Shown in pieces: positions 19,167-44,727 of a DNA stretch of 53,980 nucleotides. A program made the translations under genes and the position numbers. This stretch comes from Clostridia bacterium (GTDB taxonomy: Bacteria > Bacillota > Peptococcia > DRI-13 > SM3-B62): contig JAHDQS010000023.1 in NCBI GenBank assembly GCA_018433675.1, positions 1 through 53,980 of the forward strand, given 5' to 3'. How positions within the stretch are numbered: position 1 is the stretch's first letter; every line of letters begins with the position of its first letter. Below the pieces are notes generated by a model. That model did not search any database and was not told the origin of the DNA. It was given only the letters and a program-made list of their open reading frames with translations.

Positions 19167-20897
19167 ATGGAATTCTACTGGTATCCCTATCATATGATTT
19201 CGGTATTTTTAATATTAATATCCCTTTTTCTTTTCGGCTATATTTATAGTCGGCGACATTCGTTGGGAGCCAAGTATTTAATGGGCATGGTCGCCCTAAT
19301 GATCTTATGGATAATAGGGCAGGGGCTTGAAATTGCTGTAACCGGAATTAGGAACAAGATATTGTTTTCCAATATTCACTATATATCAATCACCTATTTG
19401 CCTGTACTGTATTTATACCTGACTCTGAGTTTCAGTGGTAATCACAGACTTGCCAAATCCAAACTCTTGCGATGGGTTTTAATTGTAGAGCCGGTAGTTT
19501 TGAACTTGCTCTTATGGATTGACCTTAATACAGAAATTCTACGGACCGGATTCTACCTGAAAGAGACGCCGATTGTCATTGTGGCGGGAAAGCAGTTTAC
19601 AGCATTGATGACGCCATTTATTATTTATAATTTTGTCTTAACCGGGACGATATTGATTATTCTTTTACGATCTTGGCTGGATAAAAGTTTTTATTACCGA
19701 AAACAGGCGAAATATTTGTTATTTGGTTTGTTGATACCAACAATGGTTACCTTGCTTTTTTTCTTCGATATAAATTTTTATGGTGTAGACATCACGCCGG
19801 TCAGCTTTATTTTTTCAGATATATTGATTGTGTACGGTATCTTGAAGCATGGCATGTACGGTTTGTCTGAAATTGCGCTGGATAATGTTTTTAATGAAAT
19901 GAAACCCAGTGTCATGGTTTATGACCAAGCGTTGAATTTAGTTAATATGAATGCCTCTTGCCTTGAACTTTTTGATTTGAAAAAGGGACAGGTTATCGGT
20001 AAGTCGGTTAGGGAAGTTTTCTCGAAAGTACGGGAAGTAAAGGATGCTCTGACACAAAAAGATTTTTTTCATGGTGAAGTGGACATTCCGTTTCATAATC
20101 AAATCAAGACTTATGACCTGACCGTTAATCCCATCGAGTCAGAAAACAACCAAAACCTGGGATGGATGGCTAACTTGTATAATATAACAGAGAGAAAATC
20201 TGCGGAGCGCCTTCTAATGGAAGACAAAAAGAATGCCCTGTCGTTGTTTGAGCTAAAGGAAAAGGAGCTCCTGGCTAATGAATCTGCTTTTTTGCAGGCG
20301 CAGATCAAGCCGCATTTCCTCTATAATTCATTGAATGTCATTGCTGCCATATGCCGTGTCGAACCGGAAAAGGCACGAATGCTGTTACTAGACTTGTCGG
20401 ATTACATGCATTACAGCTACGACCTGCGGAAGCTGGACGAGTTTATCAGTTTTAAGGACGAATTGGAGCTGATTTATTCCTATGTTAGAATAGAACAGGC
20501 CCGTTTCCAGAATAAAATTCAAGTTCATTTCGATTTAGACGAGGCAAAAGATTTAATGTTGCCCCCCTTGATCTTACAACCGTTGGTCGAGAACGCCATT
20601 CGACATGGAATCAGAAAAAAGAAAGAGGCGTGTACCGTTTCCTTTAGTCTGAAAAAAATATCGGACAAGTATATCATTCAAGTGGAAGACGACGGAATAG
20701 GTATGACCGATGAAAAATTGGAAGAAGTGATGACAGGTGAAGGTGCAAGAGGAATCGGCCTTCAAAATGTCCAGGAGCGATTAAGAAGGATTTATGGTAT
20801 CGGTATGGACATTGAAAGCCGGTATGGGCAAGGCACCAAGATTACCATTGTCATTCCGCAAGGAGGGGAAGCTTATGACAAGAGCAGTAATCGTTGA
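19167..20897 (+). CDS. 7TM sensor histidine kinase (LytS-type core)
   Basis: A 576-residue membrane kinase. Residues 1-228 form about seven hydrophobic helices, matching the N-terminal 7TM sensor of the HisKA_7TM group. Residues 240-340 form a PAS domain (MKPSVMVYDQALNLVNMNAS … YNITERK). A coiled-coil (about 345-375) leads to the His_kinase domain with the phospho-acceptor His383 in QIKPHFLYNSLN, and the ATPase domain has QPLVENAIRHGI, VEDDGIGM and GIGLQNVQERLRRIYG. The absence of a classic HisKA dimer domain is normal for this LytS/YehU class. Its end overlaps the response-regulator start by 23 bases, so the two are coupled. Ligand unknown; a membrane or small-molecule signal is likely. Confidence 0.9.
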   Translation: MEFYWYPYHMISVFLILISLFLFGYIYSRRHSLGAKYLMGMVALMILWIIGQGLEIAVTGIRNKILFSNIHYISITYLPVLYLYLTLSFSGNHRLAKSKLLRWVLIVEPVVLNLLLWIDLNTEILRTGFYLKETPIVIVAGKQFTALMTPFIIYNFVLTGTILIILLRSWLDKSFYYRKQAKYLLFGLLIPTMVTLLFFFDINFYGVDITPVSFIFSDILIVYGILKHGMYGLSEIALDNVFNEMKPSVMVYDQALNLVNMNASCLELFDLKKGQVIGKSVREVFSKVREVKDALTQKDFFHGEVDIPFHNQIKTYDLTVNPIESENNQNLGWMANLYNITERKSAERLLMEDKKNALSLFELKEKELLANESAFLQAQIKPHFLYNSLNVIAAICRVEPEKARMLLLDLSDYMHYSYDLRKLDEFISFKDELELIYSYVRIEQARFQNKIQVHFDLDEAKDLMLPPLILQPLVENAIRHGIRKKKEACTVSFSLKKISDKYIIQVEDDGIGMTDEKLEEVMTGEGARGIGLQNVQERLRRIYGIGMDIESRYGQGTKITIVIPQGGEAYDKSSNR

Positions 20898-21819
20898 TGA
20901 TGAATATTATGCGCAGCAGGGTTTAAAAATGGAACTGGACGATATTGACGGCATTGATGTGGTAGGCATGTATGACAATGGCGAAGATATGCTGAGGGAG
21001 CTGAACAAGGTAAAAGCTGATCTGATCTTTCTTGATATAGAAATGCCTGAAATAAACGGTCTGGAGCTTTTTGAAAAAATTTTGGATGCCGAAATCACTC
21101 CCTATGTTGTCTTCGTCACCGCTTACAACGAATATGCAGTCAAGGCTTTTGAAATCAATGCTTTTGACTATATTGTCAAACCGGTGACCAAGCGCCGGCT
21201 CAAAAAGACGCTGGAGCGGATGGAACTCTTCAATAATAAGGAAGAAAAAGGCGTTGTCTCCGTAAACTGTTTCAAACACTTCTCCATAATGATTGACGGT
21301 AAAGACATCAATTCAGGCTGGCGAACGAAAAAAGCCGAAGAACTGATTGCCTATCTCGTCAGTGGAGCAGGCGCCTACGTAACAAAAGACAAACTGGCGG
21401 GAAACCTGTGGCCTGACTTGAATCAGAAAAGTGCCATGTCCAATCTGTATACGGCCTACTATTATATAAAAAAACAGGAAAAGAACAAGCATATCAAAAT
21501 ACCTATCGAATCCGGTCGTGGAAAAATGCGGATCAATATAGAACATATGCATTGCGATTTTGTCGAATTTGAGAAAATGATTAAAACATCGGTGAAGAAC
21601 AATATCATTATAGATCCAATGACCCTTGAAAAAGTCTTGGAACTATATAAAGGAAAGTTTCTGGAAGACAGCTATTATGATTGGGCCATCCCCTTGCAGA
21701 ATTATCTGGAAATGCAGGCGGAGGGGGCCATGAAGTTGCTGGCTGCATATTATCGAAAAGAGGGTAACGGTGAAAAAACTTTATTTTATGAGAAGCAAAT
21801 AGCATTGATGAACGATTAA
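20875..21819 (+). CDS. Response regulator with SARP-type DNA-binding domain
   Basis: A 314-residue regulator. The receiver (1-120) has D8/D9, the phosphorylation site D54 in LIFLDIEMPEINGLE, TAYNEYA and the Lys in DYIVKPV. Then comes a winged helix (about 130-220: WRTKKAEELIAYLVSGAG … VTKDKLAGNLWPD … AMSNLYTAYYYIKKQ) and a helical BTAD-like domain to the end. This receiver-SARP-BTAD layout is known in clostridial regulators paired with 7TM kinases. ATG 20875 has AGGAGGGG six bases upstream, inside the kinase gene. A terminator follows, then the SLH-protein gene whose promoter carries 11-bp-spaced repeats, the spacing SARP proteins prefer. It most likely activates that gene (inference). Confidence 0.9.
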   Translation: MTRAVIVDDEYYAQQGLKMELDDIDGIDVVGMYDNGEDMLRELNKVKADLIFLDIEMPEINGLELFEKILDAEITPYVVFVTAYNEYAVKAFEINAFDYIVKPVTKRRLKKTLERMELFNNKEEKGVVSVNCFKHFSIMIDGKDINSGWRTKKAEELIAYLVSGAGAYVTKDKLAGNLWPDLNQKSAMSNLYTAYYYIKKQEKNKHIKIPIESGRGKMRINIEHMHCDFVEFEKMIKTSVKNNIIIDPMTLEKVLELYKGKFLEDSYYDWAIPLQNYLEMQAEGAMKLLAAYYRKEGNGEKTLFYEKQIALMND

Positions 21820-21821
21820 CA

Positions 21822-21858
21822 GAAAGTCCTTGGCTTTAAGCCGGGTGCTTTTTTTTTG
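21822..21858 (+). terminator. Rho-independent terminator
   Basis: AAAGTCCTTGGCTT pairs with AAGCCGGGTGCTTT over a tiny loop (one mismatch, several G-U pairs), followed by nine T residues. It separates the two-component operon from the surface-protein gene. Confidence 0.75.
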
Positions 21859-21877
21859 CATTTTTGACTTTTTTGTT

Positions 21878-21908
21878 GAGATTTTGTCGAGATTTTTAAG
21901 GATATAAT
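21878..21908 (+). promoter_or_regulatory. Activator-type promoter with 11-bp-spaced tandem repeats
   Basis: GAGATTTT occurs at 21878-21885 and 21889-21896, exactly 11 bp apart, followed six bases later by TATAAT (21903-21908). No -35 consensus exists at the proper distance. SARP activators are known to bind heptamer repeats with 11-bp spacing about 8 bp upstream of the -10, so this is a credible target of the regulator encoded just upstream. A looser third element (TTGACTTTTTTG) precedes the pair. Confidence 0.65.
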
Positions 21909-21962
21909 CAATTATCTAGTATTACGAAATTTCACTCTACGAATGAGAATAGGAGGAGACAG

Positions 21963-24900
21963 ATGAAAAGAAAAAATGTAAAAATATTACCCATTATACT
22001 GACACTGTGCATTATGGTTATGCTTATACCGTTGGTCACCTTGCCGGTGCAGGCGGCAGAAGCTTATGATTATGTTATAACAGCAAATGAAGATTGGGGT
22101 TATAATGTTTATCGCTCCGAAAAAGATCAAAACAATTTTTCTTTATTTTTAACAAAGCAGCCATTAAACACTACCATGCGTGACATTTCGGATGCCGTTG
22201 GTGCCGGATCAACTACAATTTGGTTTGGCGAATCAATGAGTGGGACAACTACGGATACGATTACAAATAAACTTCAACTAGAAGACGATATGATACAATT
22301 GGGATCGTATGAAACAAGTGGAGGGACCTATACATTAAAAGGTAGCTGTTCTAGCAATAGCTCGGGTTCGACAGCAGTGGTTGTTGGGCATGCATCTGTT
22401 ATAGTGGATGGCGCAGAAATAAAGAACTACGACGGTATGGTATTTTGCAATGGCGGTGGCGGTTCCGCCTCAAATGCCAGCAATGGTACCATTACCGTTC
22501 AAGCAAATAGTCTGATTTGGAGTAGCAAAAGCCATGCCATCAAGAATATTAATGCAGGTAACATCATAATAAATGGAGGAACGGTAACAAGTTCGTCAGA
22601 TGTTAATAGCATTCATAACTTAGGTTCGGGAAATGTTACTATAAACGGAGGTACTGTTAGCTGTCCTAGAGGAGATGCTATCTATAATGAAGGGACCGGT
22701 AATATTACTATTAATGATGGCGATGTTACTGGAGACAACGCAATCTATAACTATAATAACGGCAGAATTACAGTAAATGGAGGTACGGTTTCCGGTGCAA
22801 GCACCGATGTTACAGCTGGTTATGCGATTTATAACAATTTAAGAGGAGAAATTTTTATAAACGGAGGTACTGTTGTCTCATCTACAGAGCATAACCAAAC
22901 TATTCTTTTAAAAGACGGGACAAGCAATGTATGCGTGTTGACAATTGCAGGTGGTACTGTAGAAAACACGGGAGATTGTACCGTTATACAAAACGAAGGA
23001 ACTGGTGACATCTTAATAAGTGATGGTACAGTTACTACTAGTGGTACATCTGCCTATGGCGTGAAAAATAACTCAACCGGAAAAATATATCTTGCATATA
23101 CGCCATCAATCAATGGTGGCAGTAAGGATATATACACATCATCGAGTGGCACGATTGTCGCTAAAGATTTAGATTTAGAGGATCCTTATACCGGAAGTGA
23201 AATTAGCGTGGATTACGATGGCAATATCACATCGGATGGTACAACTGTTGTTGTAAGCAATGTAACCGAAAATACTAACGATGACTTATTCGTATGTGAG
23301 ATGTCTGGTTATGTGTTTACTCTAAATGGTAGTGACCTTGTTATTTATAAACCGGACTATGATTATGTTATAACCAGTGGTTCGGAAGCATATGATTTAA
23401 GCTGTTCAGATAAGGGGCAGGATAACTTTTCTATCTATAAATCTAATATAACATTTTCCCAAGCCATTAATGAAATAACGTCTTTAGTTGGGTCCGATTC
23501 AACAACTATCTGGTTTGGTGATTCCATGAGTGGCACGAGTGTGAACACACTCTCTTCAGAAGCGCTTGATATTCAATCCGGTCAATTATACATTGGTTCT
23601 AATGGAACATATACAATTAAAGGAAATATAACAAATGGAAGTAGCAGTATGTTATATACTAACGGAGCATCCATTATAGTGGACGATGCAAATTTGTCTG
23701 CAAAAGGAGTTATCTCTAATAGCGGTGGCACAGTTACGATAGAAAGTGGCAGTACGCTCACAAGTACAGAATCTTATACCATCAACAACAGCAGTGGTGG
23801 CGAAATAATAATAAACGGTGGTACAATTGAATCCCAAGGTGAGGGTTTTTCTGCCGTAAGAAACAACCAGATTATGGGAGGTAATGTCATAATAAATGGG
23901 GGCACAATTACAGCAAGTAATGATGCATACGGAGTGGAAAATAAAAACTCAGGAGCAATTTATCTGTCTTCTACCCCTCAAATTACTGGTAGCAAGGCAG
24001 GAATTTATGCGAAGTATACTAATGATATTATTGCAAACGATGGAATCGTTAATACCTATTATACAGGAGATGCGATTAGTGTTTATATTGAAAACTGTAA
24101 TGTCGGGAGCGTTGCTGTAAAAGGTTTGAACAATAATGGAGACAAGTTTACCTGTGCTAATGATGGCTACTTCTTTAAACTGGATGGCACAAATCTTGTT
24201 ATAGATGCTATGCCTGCTACAGAAATTACATCCGCTAGCATAACAAGAATAACCCCGCCTTTGGCGGGAGCGACACCATCGGAGTATGCTTCGTTAACAG
24301 CGGAAGATCTTTCTTATACAATAACTGGTCTCACCTGGTTGAACAGTGATGGAAGCACATCTGCAACGCTAACAGAAGCTGGGAAATTCAAAGCGGAAAT
24401 GGTTTACAAAGCGCAAATTGAGCTGACCTCTGCAGATACTTACAAATTCCAGTCAGAGGGTTTAACACCAACAGTCGATGTCGGAACCGCGTCAGCGGGC
24501 ACAGTGTCGGGTGGTGATGTGTCGGGTAACAAGCTGACTTTCATCGTGACATTTAACGAAACAGAAGCAAAGTCAGTAACAGCCATTGAGGTGAAAACGC
24601 AGCCAACAAAATTGACCTATGCGGAGGGAGAAAACCTAGACCTCTCAGGCTTGGTGGTTACTCTAACTTACAACGACGGTAGCACTGAAGACATCGCTCT
24701 CGTGGATTTCGCGGCCAACAGTATCACTGCCAGCCCGACCGACGGCACGATGCTTTCCATGGCGGGCTACAACGGGCAGGCCGTGACCCTGACCTGCAAC
24801 AGCCATGAAGCGACGACGGATACTCTGACAGTAGGCGCAGCACCAGATATAACAGCCCCAAGCTTGACAGCAGGAGCTGTGACAAGAACAAGTGATACAG

Positions 24901-26483
24901 AAGGCACTGTGAAATTTACCTCAGATGAAGCCGGAAGCTATTATTATGAAGTAGTAGCAGATGGTGCAGGGGAGCCTGTTATCGATACAGGTGGAGCAGG
25001 AGTAGCGTGCACTACAGCTGAAACTACGATTACGGATCCTACAGGATTAACAGCAGGAGCCAAAGATATTTATATCAAAGTAAAAGATGCATCAGGAAAT
25101 GTGAGTACTGTCCTTAAGATTGATATAGCCGCTTACATTTCATCAGAAAGTGGTTCTAACGATGGCAACTCTTCTAGTGGAACAACAACTCAACCAAAGC
25201 AGGACTCTGTCATAGTTATTGTCAACGGTAAAGAGCAGGATGCAGGAAAAGAATCAAAGACAACTGAGGATGGTAAATCCACAGTTACTGTAGAAGTAGA
25301 CAACGAAGTAATTGAAAGAAAAATCGACGAAGAAATTAAGAATAATACAACCGGCAATGAAAACATAATTCAAGTTCCTGTAGTTGATACTGTGTCAGAA
25401 GTAGTTAAGGTTGAACTCACTGGTGATATTGTAAAGAAACTTGAGGAGAACAATTTTGATGTTTCTGTTAAACGGGACAATGTAGAATATATTATTCCGG
25501 CAGAAGAATTCACCATCAGCAAGGTAGCTGAAAATCTTGGTGTTACAGAAACCGATTTGGTAGACATAAAGGTTGAAGTTAAAATCACAAAATTGGATGA
25601 AAAAGTGATAGAGAAGTACAACGAAGTTGCTAATGCCAACGGTGCGGAGCTGGTATTCTCACCAGTATCCTTTGAAGTAATGGCTAAAACCACAAAGGCA
25701 GATGGGTCAACTGGAGCAGTAGGAATCAGTAAGTTCAATAACTATGTAGAAAGAGTTATGGAGGTACCAGAAGGCGTAGACCCAAGTACGATTACAACGG
25801 GCATTGTCTTTAACCCAGATGGAACTTATAGTCATGTACCAACTTCTGTATACCAAAAGGACGGAAAGTGGTATGCAAGCTTAAACTCCTTGACAAATTC
25901 AAACTACTCCGTTATCTGGAATCCTATTACAGTGAAATCTGTTGAGAATCATTGGGCGAAGGATGCAGTCAATGATATGGCATCAAGAATTATAATCTTT
26001 GAACCTGAAAAATTCGAGCCGAATAAAGCCATAACAAGAGCAGATTTTGCAGAATACATTGTTAGAGCTTTGGGGCTTTACAGAGAAGGAACAATGCATG
26101 AGAATAAATTCAAGGATGTGACTACTACTGATGATAGAACATTAGCCATACTAATTGCTAGTGAGTACGGAATTGTGTCAGGGTATCCAGATGGATCATT
26201 TAGACCAGAGGACTTAACTACACGAGAAGAAGCCATGGCCATGTACCAAAGAGCCATGAAGGTGACAAAGCTTACTGGAAATGATTTAAACCGATATCAG
26301 AATTATAAAGACTTTAAAGAGGTAAGCCAGTGGGCAGAAGCATGTGTAAAAGAAGTATTGTCAGCTCATGTGTTTAATGGTACAAGTACATCAACAATAT
26401 CACCTAAATCAAATTTGACCTATGCAGAAGCAGCACAGGCTATTAAAAACCTCTTGGTGGAATCGAAGTTGATCAACAATTAA
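21963..26483 (+). CDS. Large SLH-anchored surface protein with beta-helix-like repeats
   Basis: A 1506-residue exported protein. A signal peptide (about residues 1-32, ending VQA-AEA) is followed by two related modules beginning at about 36 and 467. Both open with DYVIT…, then SxxTTIWFG(E/D)SMSGT and GTYT(L/I)KG, and continue with many short INGGTV/ITVNGGTVS-type repeats typical of right-handed beta-helix adhesins. A bacterial Ig-like domain is near 870-960 (IEVKTQPTKLTYAEGENLDL). A Ser/Gly/Thr-rich hinge is at about 1060-1080. The end (1327-1506) has three SLH domains (NHWAKDAVNDM …, FKDVTTT … GYPDGSFRPEDLTTREEA …, YKDFKEVSQWAE…) that bind pyruvylated cell-wall polymer. ATG 21963 follows AGGAGGAG. 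It probably acts as an adhesin or polysaccharide-binding surface layer component under the adjacent two-component system. Confidence 0.9.
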   Translation: MKRKNVKILPIILTLCIMVMLIPLVTLPVQAAEAYDYVITANEDWGYNVYRSEKDQNNFSLFLTKQPLNTTMRDISDAVGAGSTTIWFGESMSGTTTDTITNKLQLEDDMIQLGSYETSGGTYTLKGSCSSNSSGSTAVVVGHASVIVDGAEIKNYDGMVFCNGGGGSASNASNGTITVQANSLIWSSKSHAIKNINAGNIIINGGTVTSSSDVNSIHNLGSGNVTINGGTVSCPRGDAIYNEGTGNITINDGDVTGDNAIYNYNNGRITVNGGTVSGASTDVTAGYAIYNNLRGEIFINGGTVVSSTEHNQTILLKDGTSNVCVLTIAGGTVENTGDCTVIQNEGTGDILISDGTVTTSGTSAYGVKNNSTGKIYLAYTPSINGGSKDIYTSSSGTIVAKDLDLEDPYTGSEISVDYDGNITSDGTTVVVSNVTENTNDDLFVCEMSGYVFTLNGSDLVIYKPDYDYVITSGSEAYDLSCSDKGQDNFSIYKSNITFSQAINEITSLVGSDSTTIWFGDSMSGTSVNTLSSEALDIQSGQLYIGSNGTYTIKGNITNGSSSMLYTNGASIIVDDANLSAKGVISNSGGTVTIESGSTLTSTESYTINNSSGGEIIINGGTIESQGEGFSAVRNNQIMGGNVIINGGTITASNDAYGVENKNSGAIYLSSTPQITGSKAGIYAKYTNDIIANDGIVNTYYTGDAISVYIENCNVGSVAVKGLNNNGDKFTCANDGYFFKLDGTNLVIDAMPATEITSASITRITPPLAGATPSEYASLTAEDLSYTITGLTWLNSDGSTSATLTEAGKFKAEMVYKAQIELTSADTYKFQSEGLTPTVDVGTASAGTVSGGDVSGNKLTFIVTFNETEAKSVTAIEVKTQPTKLTYAEGENLDLSGLVVTLTYNDGSTEDIALVDFAANSITASPTDGTMLSMAGYNGQAVTLTCNSHEATTDTLTVGAAPDITAPSLTAGAVTRTSDTEGTVKFTSDEAGSYYYEVVADGAGEPVIDTGGAGVACTTAETTITDPTGLTAGAKDIYIKVKDASGNVSTVLKIDIAAYISSESGSNDGNSSSGTTTQPKQDSVIVIVNGKEQDAGKESKTTEDGKSTVTVEVDNEVIERKIDEEIKNNTTGNENIIQVPVVDTVSEVVKVELTGDIVKKLEENNFDVSVKRDNVEYIIPAEEFTISKVAENLGVTETDLVDIKVEVKITKLDEKVIEKYNEVANANGAELVFSPVSFEVMAKTTKADGSTGAVGISKFNNYVERVMEVPEGVDPSTITTGIVFNPDGTYSHVPTSVYQKDGKWYASLNSLTNSNYSVIWNPITVKSVENHWAKDAVNDMASRIIIFEPEKFEPNKAITRADFAEYIVRALGLYREGTMHENKFKDVTTTDDRTLAILIASEYGIVSGYPDGSFRPEDLTTREEAMAMYQRAMKVTKLTGNDLNRYQNYKDFKEVSQWAEACVKEVLSAHVFNGTSTSTISPKSNLTYAEAAQAIKNLLVESKLINN

Positions 26484-26926: not shown

Positions 26927-27520
26927 ATGACAAATAAAGATATAATTATGCAGATGGTGCATAAAAATAAAGGTACCATTACAGCGGAACAAGTGAGTAA
27001 AGCGGGTCTGTCAAGGGGAAGTATCAAATACCTTGCAGATAAAGGATTGCTGATGCGTTCAGCCCGCGGAGTATACATTTTGCCTGAAATGTGGGAAGAT
27101 GAGCTTTTTAATCTTCAGACAAGATTTAAGAAGGGCATATTTTCCCAAGAAACAGCACTTTTTCTCTTAGATTTAACAGACAGGACACCGAGTAGGTATC
27201 ATATGACATTTCCGCTTGGGTATAATACGACATCACTGAATTCTGAAAATGTAAAATACTGCCGGGTTAAGAATGATATATATGAGCTTGGCGTTACCAC
27301 AGTAAAAACACCGGGAAATAACCGGGTTAGAGTCTATGGAATTGAGCGTACCTTGTGTGATATTTTAAAAGGGCGTAACCATGTGGATATTCAGATTATT
27401 TCTGATGCTTTCAAACGATATGCAAAAATACAGGACAAAAACATTCCGTTACTTTCGGAATATGCTAAAATACTCAGAGTTGAAAAGAAAGTACGTTCCT
27501 ATCTGGAGGTATTGATATGA
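26927..27520 (+). CDS. abiEi: Type IV toxin-antitoxin antitoxin AbiEi
   Basis: A 197-residue antitoxin and autorepressor. The N-terminal winged helix (about residues 1-55) reads IIMQMVHKNKGTITAEQVS then RGSIKYLADKGLLMRSARGVY. The C-terminal domain has FSQETALFLLDLTDRTP and VYGIERTLCDIL, typical of the AbiEi family. In the known system AbiEi represses transcription and neutralises AbiEii without stable binding, which defines type IV systems. ATG 26927 has AAAGGAGG seven bases upstream. The gene overlaps the toxin start by four bases (ATGA). The promoter lies in a perfect 19-bp inverted repeat, the expected operator. Confidence 0.9.
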   Translation: MTNKDIIMQMVHKNKGTITAEQVSKAGLSRGSIKYLADKGLLMRSARGVYILPEMWEDELFNLQTRFKKGIFSQETALFLLDLTDRTPSRYHMTFPLGYNTTSLNSENVKYCRVKNDIYELGVTTVKTPGNNRVRVYGIERTLCDILKGRNHVDIQIISDAFKRYAKIQDKNIPLLSEYAKILRVEKKVRSYLEVLI

Positions 27521-28365
27521 AGAATGCAATGCAGCTAAAAGCCATTATAAAAAATATCTCAAAAGAGAAGAGTATTTCTGCCCAGCTTGTGATGCAGAAT
27601 TTTATGCTGGAGCGTTTGCTGGAACGAATTTCTATTTCTAAATATAAGTCCAATTTTATATTAAAAGGTGGATTTTTAATAGCAGCTATGGTTGGACTGG
27701 ATACTCGTGCAACTATAGATATGGATGTTACAATTAAGGGCTTACCGGTTACTGATGAAACTGTTTCTATGATGTTTAAAGAGATTTGCAGTATTGCCTT
27801 GGAAGATGATGTTGCTTTTACATTCAACCGTATTGGAGAAATCCGTAAAGGAGACGTATATGGCGGATATCGGGTGTCATTAAGTGCAGTATACCCGCCA
27901 ATGGAGATACCGCTTAAGTTAGACATTACTACGGGTGATAAAATTACGCCAAAGGAAGTCATCTATGAATTCAAGCTTCTTTTAGAAGACAGGAGCATTC
28001 AAGTATTGGCATATAACCTTGAGACTGTTATGGCCGAAAAGCTTGAAACGGTCATATCACGAGGTGACCAGAATACAAGGCCGAGGGATTTTTATGATAT
28101 ATACATACTGTATAAGTTGCAGAGAAATAACATAGAATATTCTGCGTTGAAGGCTGCTTTGCTTGCCACAGCAGAAAAAAGGAATTCTACCGGGATTGTT
28201 AAGCAATATAACAAGATAGTTTCAATTATACAAAACAGTGAGCTTATGAAAAAACGGTGGCGTGATTACCGGAAGGATTTTGATTATGCAAGTGAGATAG
28301 AATTCGAGGATACTTGTGGTACGATTAAAGAAATATTGGATTCACTGGAGATTACGCATTTATAG
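27517..28365 (+). CDS. abiEii: Type IV toxin AbiEii, nucleotidyltransferase
   Basis: A 282-residue toxin of the AbiEii (nucleotidyltransferase) family. Family members block growth on phage infection by adding nucleotides to target RNAs such as tRNA. The core shows FILKGGFLI (the GG motif), then TRATIDMDV with D68 and D70 as metal ligands, KLDIT as a further acidic strand and the conserved RPRDFYDIYIL helix near 190. Length and motif order match the family and no lesion is seen. It is coupled to the antitoxin by ATGA. Mobile-element debris follows directly, consistent with a transferred module. Confidence 0.9.
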   Translation: MKNAMQLKAIIKNISKEKSISAQLVMQNFMLERLLERISISKYKSNFILKGGFLIAAMVGLDTRATIDMDVTIKGLPVTDETVSMMFKEICSIALEDDVAFTFNRIGEIRKGDVYGGYRVSLSAVYPPMEIPLKLDITTGDKITPKEVIYEFKLLLEDRSIQVLAYNLETVMAEKLETVISRGDQNTRPRDFYDIYILYKLQRNNIEYSALKAALLATAEKRNSTGIVKQYNKIVSIIQNSELMKKRWRDYRKDFDYASEIEFEDTCGTIKEILDSLEITHL

Positions 28366-28696: not shown

Positions 28697-29035
28697 AAAT
28701 AAAATGGTAAAAAACATGTGGGTTATGCCTTAAATCTATCCGAAACCTCTGCGGATGAAAAACCGGTTTAAATCGTGACTCATTATGATCTTGCCCCTAA
28801 TACAACAAGTGATATTGAGTTGCTTAAAAGAGTTCTTCCGGAACTTTCGAAAGATGGAATTAAAGAGGTGTATACGGATAGTGGCTACTATAGTTCAGAT
28901 ATGGCAGAAGTCTTTCAAAGTCAAGTGATTACAGTCCGTTACACTAATATGACCGGTCGTAAAAAATCGAGCAAAAAATTTGCTTACAGTGATTTCGTGA
29001 TAGAGAATAGAAGAAAAACACTGTTTTACGAATAA
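28697..29035 (+). pseudogene. DDE transposase fragment
   Basis: The fragment reads KKHVGYALNLSETSADEKPV, a stop, then IVTHYDLAPNTTSDIELLKR, then a VYTDSGYYSSDMAEVF stretch where a catalytic Asp would lie. It resembles the middle of DDE transposases with a GY(A/S)xN…THYDL pattern. The start is missing and it ends where the IS1182-type element begins, so the younger element probably inserted into it. The family is uncertain. Confidence 0.6.
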
Positions 29036-29174
29036 GCTAGGGGCTGATGAATAACCAGCAAAACCGCATGAAATATGACTTTTCCCCTGAAAAAATGATA
29101 TAATTAAGTGCAAAGGAAATGTACTATATGGCTAAAAAAGCTTGCACATAACAACATCGTCAGGGGTGGTAAAA

Positions 29175-29392
29175 ATGTACCGGAAACAACCAAAGAATCA
29201 AATTACCATGTTTGAAGAAGCCACAGATTTCAGCGGAGTAAAACTTAATACAAAGAACCGTTGGATACAAATGAGTACCATCATTCCCTGGGATCTGTTC
29301 GAAGAAAAATACAGCAAGCACTTTGAAAAATCAAAAACAGGGAAACTAGCAAAGCCAGCCCGAATGGCCTTGAGAGCCCATATCTTCAGTAC
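29175..29392 (+). pseudogene. IS1182-type transposase, 5' part
   Basis: MYRKQPKNQITMFEEATDFS … LNTKNRWIQMSTIIPWDLFE … KSKTGKLAKPARMAL is the N-terminal domain of an IS1182/IS5-superfamily transposase. After ARMAL roughly 20 codons are deleted and the frame shifts. The last bases read PYLQY in the original frame (29378-29392), exactly the motif before FIGL where the intron is inserted. A ribosome binding site (AGGGGTGG) precedes ATG 29175. Confidence 0.75.
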
Positions 29393-29938
29393 GTGTGTCA
29401 CGAAGACACTGAAGTAAAGTGGCAACACTAATATTTCAGTGTCATGCTTTATGAAAGATGGAAGAGGGCCTTCCGGCATCGCTTTACAGGAAGGGGTGTC
29501 AAACTACTTCAAGGTGCTGCAGGCAAAAGCTGTGGTGCTGAGCGTTGAAGAAAAGGCCGTACAAAACGGTCAAGTGAGAATCATGGAGTCGAGCGAAAGC
29601 GAACCGCGGAGGACGCGTCGTAATATGGCATTTAGCATTGTCAAAACCGGGCAGGTATTGGGCCTAGGGACGAGCCTGGAAGAAACCTGTTTACTGACCA
29701 GGCGGCAATCGGCGTAAATGCGGCGAGAACATGATTTAGGCTTTCATAGGGAACGTGAGAACCTTATCATGGATGCTAACGGAAAACTCAAATGTTTAAA
29801 GCATAAGAGAGAATACGAATGACATGATAAGGGGTGGACCTGCTCGTAGTAGTGAAGAAGCAACTGTAATGGATGTGGAGCGAAGGGGCAGGGTCATCGA
29901 ATTCTAGGAATGTCAACCATTCAAATGGGAGGAACATT

Positions 29939-30759
29939 TTGGACAGAAGGAAACCGTACGAGATATCACAAAAAGTAGTACTCCAAGCCTTTCGCAAAGT
30001 TAAAGCAAATGGAGGAACAGCAGGGATTGACGGAATCACCATTGAGAAGTATGAATAGAATCTGAGAAACAACCTATATAAGCTTTGGAACCGGATGTCA
30101 TCAGTCCAGTGATTGCAAATCTCTTTATGCACTACGCATTCGACAGGTGGATGCAAAGAAAACATCCACACCTTAACTGGGCAAGATATGCAGATGATGG
30201 ATTGGTACACTGCAGGACTCATCAAGAAGCAGTGGGAATTATGGAGAGCTTGAAGCAGCGCATGGAAGAATGCCAGCTGGAGATACATCCTAAAAAGAGT
30301 AGAATCATCTATTGCAAAGATTATCATCGCAAAGGGAAGTATGAAACAACCAGTTTTGATTTTCTGGGTTACACTTTCCGGCCAAGATGGATCAGAAGCC
30401 AAGAAGGAAAGATATTCCTTGGTTTTGGACCGGCGGCTAGCGCGAAAGCAACAAAAGGCTTGCGGGACACAATACGATCATGGAAACTGCACAACAGGTG
30501 CCAGAGTGAGCTAAAAGATCTTGCAGTATGGATGAATCCGATTGTTCGCGGTTGGATTAACTACTATGGAAAATACCAGAAAAGCGCACTATACCCAGTC
30601 ATGCTGGTGATTAATCGAGCATTGACCTTATGGGCAAGGAGAAAGTATCGTAAAATGAAGCATAAAAAGAGGCAATCAATTAAATGGCTCCATAACTATG
30701 CAAAATGGAATCCTACACTCTTTGCTCACTGGGAAATGGGCTATATGCCAGCGGGATGA
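29939..30759 (+). pseudogene. ltrA: Group II intron reverse transcriptase/maturase, broken
   Basis: The N-terminal part (from TTG 29939 behind GGGAGGAAC) reads QKVVLQAFRKVKANGGTAGI and DGITIEKYE then a TAG at 30056. The frame resumes near 30088 with ISPVIANLFMHYAFD, the active-site YADD in RYADDGLVHC, LEIHPKKSRI, FDFLGYTF and the maturase/thumb region to YMPAG at 30759. About 150-200 residues (RT blocks 1-4 and the TPQGG motif) are deleted between. Intact relatives splice and retrohome the intron; this one cannot do so. Confidence 0.8.
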
Positions 30760-38252: not shown

Positions 38253-38341
38253 TATATGCAAGAATGTTAATGAAATATTGGCGGTCGTGTTTAGAGTATA
38301 GCGAAAAGCAAAATAAATCCGTTGGCTAGAAGGTGAGGCAA

Positions 38342-39751
38342 GTGCATCTATTTCAGATTATACCGGAGGATTTTTTCAAACCCTTGACGAGCAAATATAA
38401 AACGACTTATATTGATTGTTTAAGACTCATTTATAATACCTATAAAACAGAGCTATCCTTTGGTGTGGATAAGGAAGTCATCATTGCCGAGCTTGAGCAT
38501 TATTTTGACAGTGAAGCGGCTGCAGAAATGGTGTTTGATGAGGATGATCATGAAGTTGCAAGAGATTCACGAGCCAAAGCCAATGCAATTGTCCGCAGAC
38601 TGAAAGAAAGCGGATGGATAGAATACGAGCTTGCTAATGATTTCAAAGTCAAGGTGAATCTGTTTGACTATGCTGCCACAATGATTGAGTCCTTCAATAG
38701 AATTATCAAAAATGAGGAGCTTGAGTATCAGAGCTTAGTGTCCCAGATCCATGCCACTCTGTTGAATCAGGATGGATATGCCAAGCCATATGAATATATC
38801 ATCAAACGCGTTATCGAAAATACCGAAGAGTTGATGGTGGGACTGAAGAAATTAAACACAAACATTAAGAAACATATAGATGCGATTACCAATGAAAAAT
38901 CAGCCGGGGAAATCGTGCAGGACTTCTTTGTTTATCACAAGGATATTGGTTCCAAGGCATATCACCGTATCAAGACGAGTGATAATATATCCCATTTTAG
39001 ATCTTCAATTGTTGAAAGTCTGTACAGCATCTTAAATGATGAGAATATTTTTAAACGGGCAGTGCAGGGCTATATGGAAATCGAACAAGTTTCGGAGCAG
39101 GCCGAGGCCCAGGATTTGTTAAGAAGTAGAATCCTCAGCATAATTTCTGCCTTCAGAAATTACGATGATATTATTTCGGAAATTGATTATAAACATACAA
39201 AATATATCGGCAGTGCCGTTGCCAGAGCGAAGTTCCTGTTAACCAATACGAATAACGCCGAGGGGAAAATCTCGAAGATATTGGCATATCTGGCGGATGA
39301 GTTTAATGCAGACGATACCGTTAATTTGAACGATGAACTCAATGATACGCTGCTGGATATCTTCAATATATTCCCCCAAGCCTTTATTGACAGCGATTCT
39401 TTATATGTGGTGCCGATTTCAAAGAAAATATCTTTACCGGAAGTTCTGGGTGATAATCAGGGAATTTCTGAGGAAGAAAGGGCATTGCGTAAACTTGCAA
39501 TGCAGGAAAGAAGCAAGAACAGGTTTTCTCGCAAAAACATTAATACGTATGTTGAGGCATTGCTGAAGGATAACAAGGTAATTCTGGCATCTACATTGCC
39601 TCTGGAATCGAAAAGAGATCTGATCAGGGTGATTTTCATCAGCCTTTATGGGCGCGATAAAAAGTCAGTCTATAAGGCTTTGCCCCTTGACGAGATGATA
39701 GCTGTGAACAATTTCCGGTTTCGCGATTTTACAATTGAAAGGTATGAGTGA
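38342..39751 (+). CDS. jetA: Wadjet component JetA (kleisin-like, type II)
   Basis: A 469-residue, mainly alpha-helical protein, read as the MukF-like kleisin of a Wadjet plasmid-defence complex. It opens HLFQIIPEDFFKPLTSKYKT, like type II JetA (DUF5716) proteins that start with …LFxxIPExFF. A winged-helix-like N-terminus (about 1-110) is followed by long helices and a C-terminal domain from about 390. The GTG at 38342 is preferred because AAGGTGAGG lies just upstream and the family N-terminus begins there; a GTG at 38333 is the alternative. Its stop overlaps the jetB start. In Wadjet the SMC complex JetABC extrudes DNA loops, and JetD cuts small circular DNA. Confidence 0.85.
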   Translation: MHLFQIIPEDFFKPLTSKYKTTYIDCLRLIYNTYKTELSFGVDKEVIIAELEHYFDSEAAAEMVFDEDDHEVARDSRAKANAIVRRLKESGWIEYELANDFKVKVNLFDYAATMIESFNRIIKNEELEYQSLVSQIHATLLNQDGYAKPYEYIIKRVIENTEELMVGLKKLNTNIKKHIDAITNEKSAGEIVQDFFVYHKDIGSKAYHRIKTSDNISHFRSSIVESLYSILNDENIFKRAVQGYMEIEQVSEQAEAQDLLRSRILSIISAFRNYDDIISEIDYKHTKYIGSAVARAKFLLTNTNNAEGKISKILAYLADEFNADDTVNLNDELNDTLLDIFNIFPQAFIDSDSLYVVPISKKISLPEVLGDNQGISEEERALRKLAMQERSKNRFSRKNINTYVEALLKDNKVILASTLPLESKRDLIRVIFISLYGRDKKSVYKALPLDEMIAVNNFRFRDFTIERYE

Positions 39752-40380
39752 TGGAGATGGAAGTTTTCAAAGAAAGCCAGGTGCAGAAAGAAAAATTTAG
39801 AGTTGCTGCTAACAAGCTGCTTAATAATTGCTTCATCATCAAGAAAAAAGAAGATACCAGAAGCGACTATATCTTCATCCTTCAGAACAAAGCTCTGTTT
39901 GTTGAGTACTTTGATTTGCTTGGCTATAAAATTAATATCAATGAAAATCAGGGTGTTGTCGCTTTGACAAATATAAACGGTACAGGACGACTGAGATTGA
40001 AAAAGGTTGAAAGCATTATTTTGCTGATACTAAGGCTTTTGTACATAGAAAAACGCAAGGAATTAAGCCTGACAGAGGACGTCGTGGTGCTGACGGATGA
40101 GATGCATCAAAAATATAGCATGCTTAAAATCGAAGCAAAGTTAAACCTCGATAAGACGACGCTAAGAGATACCATCCGCCTGTTCAAACGCTACAATATC
40201 GTCACAAATATTGACCGCGATGTTACGATGTCCGATGCAAGGATCAAAATTTACCCCTCGGTCCTCTTCGCCATAACAAATGACAACCTGAACAGCATGT
40301 ACGATGCGATAAATGAGAAACTGAATCAATATGTGATGGGGGGTGAGTCAAGTGATGATGAAGATGTTGACCAGGATTAG
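39748..40380 (+). CDS. jetB: Wadjet component JetB (MukE-like, DUF4194)
   Basis: A 210-residue protein with the tandem winged-helix character of the MukE-like DUF4194 family: KLLNNCFIIKKKEDTRSDYI, then FEYFDLLGY-like and LTNINGTGRLRLKKVES, and KTTLRDTIRLFKRYNIV near residue 150. The C-terminus is acidic (GGESSDDEDVDQD). It begins at the GTG/ATG pair at 39748/39751, overlapping the jetA stop. Its own 3' end overlaps jetC by up to 38 bases. It would bridge the kleisin JetA to the complex and to DNA. Confidence 0.87.
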   Translation: MMEMEVFKESQVQKEKFRVAANKLLNNCFIIKKKEDTRSDYIFILQNKALFVEYFDLLGYKININENQGVVALTNINGTGRLRLKKVESIILLILRLLYIEKRKELSLTEDVVVLTDEMHQKYSMLKIEAKLNLDKTTLRDTIRLFKRYNIVTNIDRDVTMSDARIKIYPSVLFAITNDNLNSMYDAINEKLNQYVMGGESSDDEDVDQD

Positions 40381-43300
40381 ATTAATCAACTGGCATTATT
40401 TTGTTAATGAAACCATCAGCGTTAATGGCTCATTTCTAATAAGCGGAGAAAACACATCTGGAAAATCCACTGTCCTTGATGCCATTCAACTTGTCCTGAC
40501 CACCAACCATAGGAAATTCAACACTGCGGCCAACGAAAAAAGCAGCCGGGATTTAAAGGGCTATGTCCGCTGCAAAACCGGTAATGAGGATAATACCTAT
40601 ACTCGATCCGGCAGTGTCATCACTTATGTAGCACTGGAGTTTTATGAGGAGAAAACGGGAAGGTATTTTACCCTTGGTGCAAAAATAGACTCCCCGGATG
40701 AAGAAAGCAAGCTGACTACGAAATGGTTTCGGGAAGAGTGCAGATTGGAAGAACTGAGCTTTTTAACAGGAGGAAGGCCGTCTACAGCAGATGAATTCCG
40801 TAAAAACGACAAGAAGGTTATGCTGATATCTCAGTTATCTGAGGCTAAAGCAAGGTTCGGACAAAGGCTTGGAAACCTGGAAGATCGGTTTTTCGACATG
40901 ATACCGAAATCCCTGGCCTTCAAGCCCATGGATAATGTAAAAGAGTTTATCAACAGATTTATTCTTTCAGAAAAAGCGATAGAGGTCGCGACGCTTCGGA
41001 ACAATATCGCTTCTCTGAAAGAGCTGGAAGATTTAATGACCCTCACAAAGGAAAAAATCAATGATCTAAAAGCGATACTCTCGAAAAACGAGGAGATTAT
41101 CGCTAAAGAGCGGGAGATCAAGACAAATGAAGTACTGATAAAGAAAGCGGAAATAGAAGCCAAGAAGCTTGAATGTGAAGCCCTTGAAAAAAATAACCAG
41201 ATTTTCAGGCAACAGCTCCAAAGTGAGCAGAATAAATTAGAAATATTAAATTCAAACCTTCAAAACGAAAGAGGCAGGCTCACTAGTTTACAGGTTGCTC
41301 GCGGGCAGAATGAAATCGCGTTGCTGATTAAAGATACCAAGCACAGAATTGACATGTTGAATAAGGACAGGGAAAATGCCAAGCGATCACTCGATAAGCT
41401 GGATAAAATGCTTCGGACAGTGTCAGAAACGCTGATGCTGTTAAACCGATTTGAAGTATATGTTATATCAAAAGATGATCTGATGGCATTAGGATCAGCC
41501 GAACAGGACGTTGAGTTAAAATCGGAACACATTTTTAAATTAAAAAAAGAGCTTACACAGTTGTTGAATAACTATAGCTCCGACAACGTTAGGCAAAAGG
41601 ATCTTCTGAAAATATTCAGGAATCAAAAGATAATGCTGGAAGAGGAGATCAATAATCTTAAAAACAAAAAACTGACTTATCCGGAAAACACCACTAAGTT
41701 GCTGACTGCCCTTGAAAAAGAGTTCTTAAACCAAGGAATCAGAAGTAAGCCCAGGATATTTTCCGATCTGCTGGAAATCACAGATGCAAGATGGCAGAAC
41801 GCAGTAGAAGGTTATTTAAACACGCAGCGATTTTATATCATCGTTGAGCCGCAACATTACAAGGTCGCACTTGATGTCTACAATAAAATAAAAAAGGAAG
41901 TTCACACAGTGGGTCTTGTGAATACAAACAAACTTGACATAAAAATCGGTGCGGATATGGCTGCCCTTGCCTATGTCATAAAGAGTGAAAACCGATGGGC
42001 CAAAGCATACGCCATTTACCTTCTCAATAGGGTAATCCGCTGTGAGGATGTGGGGAGTCTAAAAGAACACAAGGTAGCAATAACGCCTGACTGCATGTTA
42101 TATCAAAATCATGCGGTCAGAAAAATAGATGAAAGAGTGTATCATACACCTTATATTGGTGCCTATGCCTTTGAAGTTCAGCTGAAAAACAAGCAGGCCG
42201 AGCTTGAAGCAACCAACGCCGACATATCGGCTGCCCAAGAAAAGCTGAAGCAACTGCAGCCCATTATTGATAAGCTTGGGGCATGCAATATAGAAGTAAT
42301 CGAAGAGAATGTTGATGCTCCACAGAATTTCAAAATTGCCAACGAGCGGATCCAGAAAGAAAAACTTGAACTCAAAAAAGCGGAAAACGACCCCAACTAT
42401 ATCCAGATTCAAATTCAAATTGAGGAATGCGAAAAACTGGTTAAGCGTCTTCAGGAGGACTATAACGAGGCCCGTGAATCCATTGGTAGCCATAAGAATA
42501 AAATCGACAGCAATATAAATCAGATGAACGATATTAAAAGTCAGATTACCGTATTGGAAAACGGCTTCAAAGCTCTGTGCGATAGTGATGCCGGGGTCGC
42601 TGAGCTTGGAATGAATAAATTCAATGAGCAAATCAAGATGAAAGCACCGGCCATAATTGTTCAGAACTTTTCTCCTCTGAAAGTCGGATTGCAGAATAAG
42701 AAAAACGATTTGTGCGGAGAACTCATAAAACTCCAGGTTAACTATTGCAGCAAAAATGACTGCGATTTAGGCTCCGGTTATGAACAGATGCAGGAATACA
42801 TCAATGAGCATCATAAGCTGGTAGCGTCTGATATTATCAAGTACGAAGAAGATCTGGAAAAAGCCAAAGAGAATTGCCACATGGAGTTTAAGGAGTCTTT
42901 TCTGGCTAGGCTCAAGGAAAATATCGAGAATGCCAAATTGGAATTTAAAAACCTCAATGCTGCTTTGAAGGATATTTACTATGGCGAGGACAGCTATAAA
43001 TTTGAATTGACCTCAAACAAGAAAAAAGAGAGTATTTATCAGATGATTACATCCAAAAGGAACGAGGATGGCTTCAATCTGTGGTCGCAATCCTTTGAAG
43101 AAGAATACAAGGAAGAGATGGAGGATCTGTTTATCAAACTGACAGCCTATGATGATAGAGGGGAAAAAGTTCTGGCGGAGTATACGGATTATCGAAGTTA
43201 TCTGGACTATGACATCATCGTCGAGAGAAGAGACGGTACTGTTCAGCGCTTTTCCAAGATCTACGGCGAAAAAAGCGGTGGAGAAACTCAGACACCATAC

Positions 43301-43558
43301 TATGTGGCTATCGCAGCATCTTTTGTCCAGCTCTATAAATTGGGCGACACCATCAGAATTATCATGTTTGATGAAGCTTTCGACAAAATGGATGACAACA
43401 GAATCAGTTCTATGATGGACTTCCTGAACAGCCAAAAATTTCAAATTATCCTTGCCACACCGCCGGCAAAGCTTGAAGTGATTGGCGAAAAAGTAGATAC
43501 CATATTGATGGCTATGCGTGAGGGAACGAACAGCATCATCGAGGAGTACTATTTATGA
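40343..43558 (+). CDS. jetC: Wadjet component JetC (SMC-like ATPase)
   Basis: A 1071-residue SMC/MukB-like ATPase. The head begins RIRLINWHYFVNETI with Walker A GENTSGKST at residues 35-43. Two long coiled-coil arms (about 240-440 and 620-900) flank a hinge-like globular region (about 455-610). The C-terminal head has the ABC signature YGEKSGGETQTPYY and Walker B IRIIMFDEAFDKMDD. The start could be GTG 40343 or ATG 40355; GGGGGGTGAG lies about nine bases before the latter. The 3' end overlaps jetD by four bases (ATGA). It is the motor that extrudes DNA in the Wadjet complex. Confidence 0.92.
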   Translation: MSQVMMKMLTRIRLINWHYFVNETISVNGSFLISGENTSGKSTVLDAIQLVLTTNHRKFNTAANEKSSRDLKGYVRCKTGNEDNTYTRSGSVITYVALEFYEEKTGRYFTLGAKIDSPDEESKLTTKWFREECRLEELSFLTGGRPSTADEFRKNDKKVMLISQLSEAKARFGQRLGNLEDRFFDMIPKSLAFKPMDNVKEFINRFILSEKAIEVATLRNNIASLKELEDLMTLTKEKINDLKAILSKNEEIIAKEREIKTNEVLIKKAEIEAKKLECEALEKNNQIFRQQLQSEQNKLEILNSNLQNERGRLTSLQVARGQNEIALLIKDTKHRIDMLNKDRENAKRSLDKLDKMLRTVSETLMLLNRFEVYVISKDDLMALGSAEQDVELKSEHIFKLKKELTQLLNNYSSDNVRQKDLLKIFRNQKIMLEEEINNLKNKKLTYPENTTKLLTALEKEFLNQGIRSKPRIFSDLLEITDARWQNAVEGYLNTQRFYIIVEPQHYKVALDVYNKIKKEVHTVGLVNTNKLDIKIGADMAALAYVIKSENRWAKAYAIYLLNRVIRCEDVGSLKEHKVAITPDCMLYQNHAVRKIDERVYHTPYIGAYAFEVQLKNKQAELEATNADISAAQEKLKQLQPIIDKLGACNIEVIEENVDAPQNFKIANERIQKEKLELKKAENDPNYIQIQIQIEECEKLVKRLQEDYNEARESIGSHKNKIDSNINQMNDIKSQITVLENGFKALCDSDAGVAELGMNKFNEQIKMKAPAIIVQNFSPLKVGLQNKKNDLCGELIKLQVNYCSKNDCDLGSGYEQMQEYINEHHKLVASDIIKYEEDLEKAKENCHMEFKESFLARLKENIENAKLEFKNLNAALKDIYYGEDSYKFELTSNKKKESIYQMITSKRNEDGFNLWSQSFEEEYKEEMEDLFIKLTAYDDRGEKVLAEYTDYRSYLDYDIIVERRDGTVQRFSKIYGEKSGGETQTPYYVAIAASFVQLYKLGDTIRIIMFDEAFDKMDDNRISSMMDFLNSQKFQIILATPPAKLEVIGEKVDTILMAMREGTNSIIEEYYL

Positions 43559-44727
43559 TGAGTAAATATGAGAAGACCATTTTAAATGCGCTTTTGGATA
43601 AGTTTGAGAAGAGTAAAAGTTTTACCGGGGACAATAAAGTCAATCAGAAATTCGCGGTTAAAATTGTCTCCTTATTTTCACAATACGCGGATCACTCCAA
43701 CTTTGAAGTGTTTCAATCCGTCAATGAAGCTGTCGATTTATTAGCCAGAAAGAAACTGATCTCAGCAAAGATCAATAAGGCAAAAGTTTGCAGTGAAGTT
43801 CATCTGAACCTGAATGAAATCAATGAAGTTTATCAATACATCGGCAGAACGCCGAAGAGGGATATAAACAATGACGTTATAAAACTGCTTGACGAGTATA
43901 AGGACAAAAATGAAATACTTAAACGCTATTGTGAAACACAAGCTGAAAGAATCAAAATGAATAAGTCTATCCAATTTTTCAATAATGATTTGCCGGAATA
44001 TGAGAATCTTCTTCTTGCAGTTGATCGAATACTCGCGGTTGATTCAGAGATCTTTTCCAGAGATTTCTCAGTTAGGATATTTAAAGACTCAAAATTATTT
44101 GAGCGCATCAGTTCTAAGGTTATCAATTTGCTCTTTGAGTATGGTGATTTTCCGGAAAAGGATCAAGTGCTGGAGAATTTAAACATCATCAAGAATCCGA
44201 CGTATGTTAATTGCAAAGGTGCAGGTACATTGATAATATCGGAGCAAAGAATTGATTTGAGTGCTCTGAGAAGTGATATTGCAATTTCATCCTCTCTGTT
44301 AGATGACATTGAAAAGATTGAGATTACCGGAAAATCAGTGATGACGGTAGAAAACTTAACAAGTTTTCATACGGTGGACAGCAGGGATATATTTCTGATT
44401 TATTTAGGCGGATTCCATAATCGCGTGAGAAGAGAATTCATCAAAAAAATTCACAGGCAAAATCCTGGAGTGGCATTTTATCATTTCGGGGATATTGATG
44501 CAGGTGGCTTTTATATATTAAAGCACCTGCAAAGGCAAACGGGGATAGATTTCAAACCTTACAAAATGGATCTAAAGACCCTGAAAGAGTACCGGGATTA
44601 TGCAAAGAGGCTCACCGACAACGACCGGGACAGGCTCAAAAAACTGAGAGGCAGCGAGTTTGATGAAGTAATCGACTATATGCTGGATGATAACTGCAAA
44701 CTAGAACAGGAAGCGATTCGTTTTTAA
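43555..44727 (+). CDS. jetD: Wadjet component JetD (Toprim nuclease, DUF2220)
   Basis: A 390-residue protein with a C-terminal topoisomerase VI A-like Toprim domain. The metal-binding Glu is E266 in TVENLTSFH and the DxD pair is D313/D315 in YHFGDIDAGGFYILKHL. The N-terminal half contains winged-helix-like segments. The DUF2220 family member JetD is the nuclease subunit that cuts closed circular DNA sensed by JetABC, which protects cells from plasmids. It overlaps jetC by ATGA and closes the operon. All key residues are present, so the system looks complete. Confidence 0.9.
   Translation: MMSKYEKTILNALLDKFEKSKSFTGDNKVNQKFAVKIVSLFSQYADHSNFEVFQSVNEAVDLLARKKLISAKINKAKVCSEVHLNLNEINEVYQYIGRTPKRDINNDVIKLLDEYKDKNEILKRYCETQAERIKMNKSIQFFNNDLPEYENLLLAVDRILAVDSEIFSRDFSVRIFKDSKLFERISSKVINLLFEYGDFPEKDQVLENLNIIKNPTYVNCKGAGTLIISEQRIDLSALRSDIAISSSLLDDIEKIEITGKSVMTVENLTSFHTVDSRDIFLIYLGGFHNRVRREFIKKIHRQNPGVAFYHFGDIDAGGFYILKHLQRQTGIDFKPYKMDLKTLKEYRDYAKRLTDNDRDRLKKLRGSEFDEVIDYMLDDNCKLEQEAIRF

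Follow-up and report, generated by a model that had tools for sequence, protein, structure and literature searches.

A candidate two-component SARP switch with an 11-bp tandem operator at the gene of a giant SLH surface protein in a Clostridia bacterium

We analysed a 53,980-nucleotide stretch of DNA from a Clostridia bacterium (GenBank assembly GCA_018433675.1, contig JAHDQS010000023.1, positions 1 to 53,980; hereafter the window), in which overlapping genes for a sensor histidine kinase and a response regulator are followed by a terminator, a promoter carrying two 11-bp direct repeats and the gene for a giant secreted SLH protein (Table 1). This order had been proposed in a sequence-only reading of the window, and Pfam, the sequence itself and a hairpin search agree with it. 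The kinase and regulator genes share 23 nt, and the sole terminator-like hairpin of the region (21829-21845, with a T tail; RNA fold z -2.5) separates them from the repeats. The SLH protein consists of an N-terminal hydrophobic signal visible in the translation, beta-helix-like NGGTV repeats, a Big_3 domain and three C-terminal SLH domains (E 6.5e-25, Pfam), and with a signal peptide and three SLH domains it qualifies as an SLH surface protein.

Table 1. Features of the kinase, regulator and SLH protein locus, in window coordinates.
Feature	Position	Strand	Basis
Sensor histidine kinase: HisKA_7TM, PAS, LytS-type His_kinase, HATPase_c	19167..20897	+	Pfam; L111 ortholog E 1e-184
Response regulator (P0001): REC, predicted SARP winged helix and short BTAD, 314 aa	20875..21819, ATG 20875	+	Pfam REC; BTAD/Trans_reg_C in homologues; output-domain fold EmbR Z 16.4, AfsR Z 15.9
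Intrinsic terminator 3' of regulator gene	21829..21852	+	hairpin search, RNA fold
Upstream 11-bp repeat TTTGTTGAGAT, proposed SARP half-site	21872..21882	+	sequence, matrix, shuffles
Downstream 11-bp repeat TTTGTCGAGAT, proposed SARP half-site	21883..21893	+	sequence, matrix, shuffles
-10 element TATAAT, without matching -35	21903..21908	+	sequence, promoter scoring
Ribosome-binding site AGGAGG	21951..21956	+	sequence
Secreted SLH protein, 1506 aa	21963..26483	+	Pfam, translation

The regulator has the hallmarks of a two-component protein. The acidic pocket, phospho-Asp and Lys of its receiver (REC) domain are D7, D8, D53 and K101, all conserved, and its gene overlaps that of a kinase whose H sits in PHFLYN and whose domains recur in the ortholog at locus L111. 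Because a structure search with the full-length model was swamped by the REC domain, the output domain was folded separately (pLDDT 94). Its only strong full-length fold matches were AfsR from Streptomyces coelicolor (PDB 8hvr, 8k60) and EmbR from Mycobacterium tuberculosis (PDB 2fez, 2ff4), with Z scores of 15-16.4 over 182-187 residues, and the next matches covered winged-helix domains only (Z of 10.5 or less). Among the aligned homologues 26 of 28 contain BTAD and 24 of 28 Trans_reg_C. The output domain is thus predicted to be an OmpR-type winged helix followed by BTAD, the SARP arrangement that the sequence-only reading had named. A LytTR response regulator was rejected, as the Pfam scan gave no LytTR domain and the output fold is that of a SARP. 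The window regulator and its closest relatives are 309-314 aa long, against about 375 aa, and lack a complete BTAD; we refer to them as the short-BTAD group.

In the promoter, GAGATTTT is found at 21878 and again 11 bp on at 21889, and TATAAT begins six bases past the second copy, just as first reported. The register first chosen for the repeat unit did not hold: comparison with relatives shifts the two units to the positions in Table 1, 9 bp from the -10, the register of an 11-bp unit being a choice. In its best register, the promoter (21872-21908) reads TTTGTTGAGAT / TTTGTCGAGAT / 9 bp / TATAAT. No sigma-70-type -35/-10 pair scored in the promoter region, in line with the earlier claim that a -35 is missing. 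The SLH upstream region has a lag-11 repeat plus -10 score of 15.3. No dinucleotide-preserving shuffle out of 2000 attained this score, nor did the upstream region of any of 395 other genes at any of ten spacings from 7 to 16. A search with the 21-mer of the repeat promoter, allowing up to 3 mismatches, gave no second match in the 3.0-Mb genome.

This layout resembles that of AfsR promoters, which have two 11-bp direct repeats near the -10 and no good -35 (PMC10936776); the sequence-only reading had noted 11-bp-spaced repeats close to the -10 for SARP activators. At AfsR promoters, the 22-bp box is bound by a side-by-side dimer with one protomer per 11-bp repeat, and AfsR serves as the docking site for sigma region 4 in place of the -35 (PMC10936776). 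Measured against the SARP operator taken from that work (direct repeats with an 11-bp period about 8 bp from the -10), the sites described here have the 11-bp period and a gap of 8 or 9 bp.

The sequence-only reading had suggested looking for the repeats in orthologous promoters, and the tandem is conserved at the same place in relatives whose regulator stands beside a giant secreted gene. The closest regulators are those of genomes G024 (56% identity), G249 (51%) and G013 (47%). In G024 (L111) a gene 3' of the kinase/regulator pair, truncated at the contig end, encodes a giant secreted protein of 2308 aa or more. G001 (L113), of the same genus as the window genome, has a paralogous pair (34%) with the gene of a 1945-aa SLH protein 3' of it; over the C-terminal 450 aa, this protein and the window SLH protein share 38% identity. 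The promoter between regulator and target reads GTATAGATTTTGTAAAGACTTGATTTGCTATAAT in L111 and TTTGATGAAATTTTGATGAAAACCACCCTGTATAAT in L113, the latter with the variant half-site GATGAA. In G249 (L120) the repeat promoter lies 3' of the regulator and leads into an internally damaged SLH remnant (L120:1647-2279, minus strand); here the target has decayed behind an intact promoter, and kinase and regulator are kept. The G013 pair has no surface gene nearby, and two of the three motif sites of that genome lie just 5' of a stand-alone receiver and a giant SLH-type protein on other contigs (L209, L210); the motif alone had predicted these remote SLH operons. A further repeat site in G013 (L211:478, G013:C31) lies 5' of a nucleotide-sugar dehydrogenase gene, with a second REC-SARP regulator on the contig.

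In L111 (10136-10564), L113 (10997-11377), L209 (14317-14700) and L210 (6993-7367), the repeat promoter is separated from the giant gene by a stand-alone receiver gene, which has no counterpart in the window. The receivers of L209 and L210 are intact and 52-56% identical to the window REC, while that of L113 lacks the phospho-Asp and Lys and that of L111 the acidic pocket. They are possibly a phosphate sink or feedback partner.

The spacing of the repeats was examined in a first set of 38 loci fetched by regulator similarity, in most of which a giant secreted gene lies close to the regulator, and in a later set of 37 loci from the Paenibacillus-containing order, to which the spacing and matrix tests were applied unchanged. 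In the first set a spacing of 11 was found upstream of 6 of 25 giant genes and 7 of 317 other genes and stood out among spacings 7-16; in the later set it was found for 9/23 giants and 6/395 others, with 0/23 giants at each of the nine other spacings. Eleven is the only clearly enriched spacing. A matrix trained on nine distant first-set sites, the window excluded, gave the window site 31.7 bits, against 18.2 bits for the next best site on either strand and a maximum of 21.5 over 60 shuffled windows, and in L111, L113 and L120, too, the repeat site outscored all other sites of its locus. In the later loci, giants scored above other genes (p = 6e-8). Sites of at least 20 bits occurred in 21/37 regulator loci and 1/20 arbitrary loci of the same genomes (p = 8e-5), and a secreted giant in 17/37 and 2/20, respectively (p = 0.005). 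Thirty strong sites have TTTGTTCAGAT-like units with invariant G4, T5 and A8 and a GTNNAG core, bases that are partly selected for because the sites were chosen with the matrix. The gap to the -10 is 8 bp in 27 of these 30 sites, beside long-BTAD regulators, as in L113, and 9 bp in the short-BTAD group (window, L111, L120, L209/L210). A gap that follows BTAD length, in these few cases, is what would be expected if the adjacent regulator binds. For the regulators of G022, G023, G345 and G368, which are more distant, the matrix search found no convincing motif nearby.

Genome-wide motif work was done by pattern searches. The strict pattern TTGTNNAGNNNTTGTNNAG-N10/11-TANNNT, which misses L113, was present in 158 of 296 genomes, and the reversed control in 8 of 296. 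Within one order, the motif occurred in 156 of 247 regulator-positive and 2 of 49 regulator-negative genomes (Fisher 8e-16, which overstates independence as related genomes were counted singly). A relaxed pattern had a single site in the window's own genome (G000), the SLH promoter; in G024 and G249 it also had one site apiece, located where the regulator lies. That the circuit serves one protein, as the sequence-only reading proposed, fits the single match in G000; this protein may be an adhesin. Clostridia are not alone in having the circuit, which is commonest in the Paenibacillus-containing order that was searched; there, nearby giants are more often LPXTG than SLH proteins.

Together, the conserved repeats and their position support the view that a SARP-type regulator would control the surface-protein gene by way of the 11-bp repeats close to the -10. 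We put a probability of about 0.83 on a self-contained two-component SARP switch that turns on the adjacent SLH gene via the tandem. The 7TM-PAS kinase would sense a signal and phosphorylate the REC domain of the adjacent regulator; two SARP-output regulators would then occupy the 22-bp tandem next to each other, one DNA turn per 11-bp repeat, so that the tandem stands in for the -35 element and the bound regulator recruits RNA polymerase to the consensus -10. The promoter layout, with tandem 11-bp repeats, no -35 and a consensus -10, matches the one used by AfsR. We infer phosphorylation-dependent binding and activation. Elsewhere in Bacillota, regulators of this kind would put the same operator to use chiefly for giant surface proteins with LPXTG or SLH anchors.

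Several observations weigh against this reading. P0001 itself has no Pfam BTAD or Trans_reg_C match, and its BTAD ends some 70 aa earlier than in most homologues; it is therefore counted as a SARP variant rather than a typical member. A genome was judged to lack the regulator on the basis of its six best candidates, at E 1e-80. Some later loci are near kin of training loci (L161 resembles L052 and L036), which makes their independence partial, about half of the later loci have no recognised giant gene, and several giants have no clear repeat. Finally, the locus-wide maximum matrix score separates the loci only weakly from 40 unrelated loci (p = 0.11); the position-specific tests are the informative ones.

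Four other explanations were considered. The regulator might bind the repeats yet repress, or merely modulate a constitutive promoter, with which the sequence is compatible and for which the perfect TATAAT consensus speaks; we regard this as unlikely, given a promoter without a -35 and known SARPs that activate from the same layout (PMC10936776). Binding of a genuine tandem by some other regulator is conceivable from the stand-alone receiver genes in L111, L113, L209 and L210, which may point to other partners, but we consider it quite improbable: these receivers have no DNA-binding domain, all other matches to the regulator in G000 are far weaker (E 1e-24 or worse, mostly to the REC part), and the operator gap tracks the type of the adjacent regulator. 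The Spo0A box is TGTCGAA, and Spo0A is general in spore-forming Bacillota. The window sequence TTTGTCGAGA is one base off this box, so that the repeats might be tandem TTTGTCGAAA-like Spo0A boxes that place the surface protein under sporulation control instead of under the adjacent regulator. The window units are TGTTGAG and TGTCGAG, and neither fits TGNCGAA. Among the 30 sites, 27-29 have G at position 9, which is A in the box, and at positions 6-7 most have TC or AG in place of CG. Across genomes of one order, the presence of the motif goes with that of the SARP regulator; Spo0A would not follow a SARP gene in this way and is therefore set aside as very unlikely. A chance repeat beside an unrelated gene is scarcely credible, for although the region is T-rich and short two-copy repeats are common, the tandem was not matched by any shuffle, is unique in the genome and is conserved in relatives and in the later-fetched loci.

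The proposed two-component SARP switch combines parts of known kinds: a SARP, a LytS kinase and an SLH protein. In actinomycetes, SARPs are familiar as activators of antibiotic clusters. AfsR shares with the window regulator the winged-helix and BTAD output, and the afsS promoter shares the repeat layout; in contrast, AfsR has NOD and TPR domains and governs antibiotic production, whereas the window system has a REC domain and a kinase, a surface-protein target, a short BTAD and another repeat sequence. EmbR has a similar output domain and differs in its FHA domain and Ser/Thr-kinase input. LytS/LytR systems share the LytS-type transmitter and a LytR-like receiver (36% to the S. aureus LytR REC), but the window kinase has a HisKA_7TM sensor and the regulator a SARP output rather than LytTR. 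CarSR-radD of Fusobacterium nucleatum is reported to be a two-component system that directly controls a large surface adhesin (PMC12186487); it belongs to a different phylum, and the comparison is one of system type and target. Among the open-licence papers searched, none was found to describe a REC-SARP regulator together with surface proteins in Bacillota, in line with the sequence-only reading, in which the linkage was called not known from the literature in Clostridia, and the combined switch with its conserved operator is apparently undescribed.

Beyond the window, strong repeat sites also lie 5' of MHYT-type, HD-GYP-like, sortase-like, kinase and regulator genes (L157, L163, L167, L172, L180-L182, L184, L186 and L190), which suggests autoregulation and a link to c-di-GMP turnover; these further genes of the Paenibacillus-containing order seem to be under the same control. 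We consider it somewhat better than an even bet that a phylum-wide SARP-type two-component family in Bacillota acts as a general surface-attachment switch. It would act on giant surface proteins through a single conserved operator, two copies of TTTGTNNAGNN, 8-9 bp and TATAAT, and in the Paenibacillus-containing order its regulon would also include sortases, MHYT and HD-GYP (c-di-GMP-type) genes, and the genes of the kinase and regulator themselves. Large surface proteins across Bacillota thus appear to be controlled by a SARP output domain that is fused to a receiver and partnered by a kinase. With a defined operator, sequence alone would allow the regulons of hundreds of unstudied regulators to be predicted; the operator would also offer a way to find the signal that induces the giant surface proteins, and may tie surface adhesion to c-di-GMP turnover in Paenibacillus relatives.

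Elsewhere in the window, an AbiEi/AbiEii toxin-antitoxin pair (26927-28365) lies immediately 3' of the SLH gene, followed by pieces of an IS transposase and of an apparent group II intron reverse transcriptase (28775-30759). A complete type I Wadjet operon of four genes, JetA1-JetB1-JetC1-JetD1, occupies 38333-44727.
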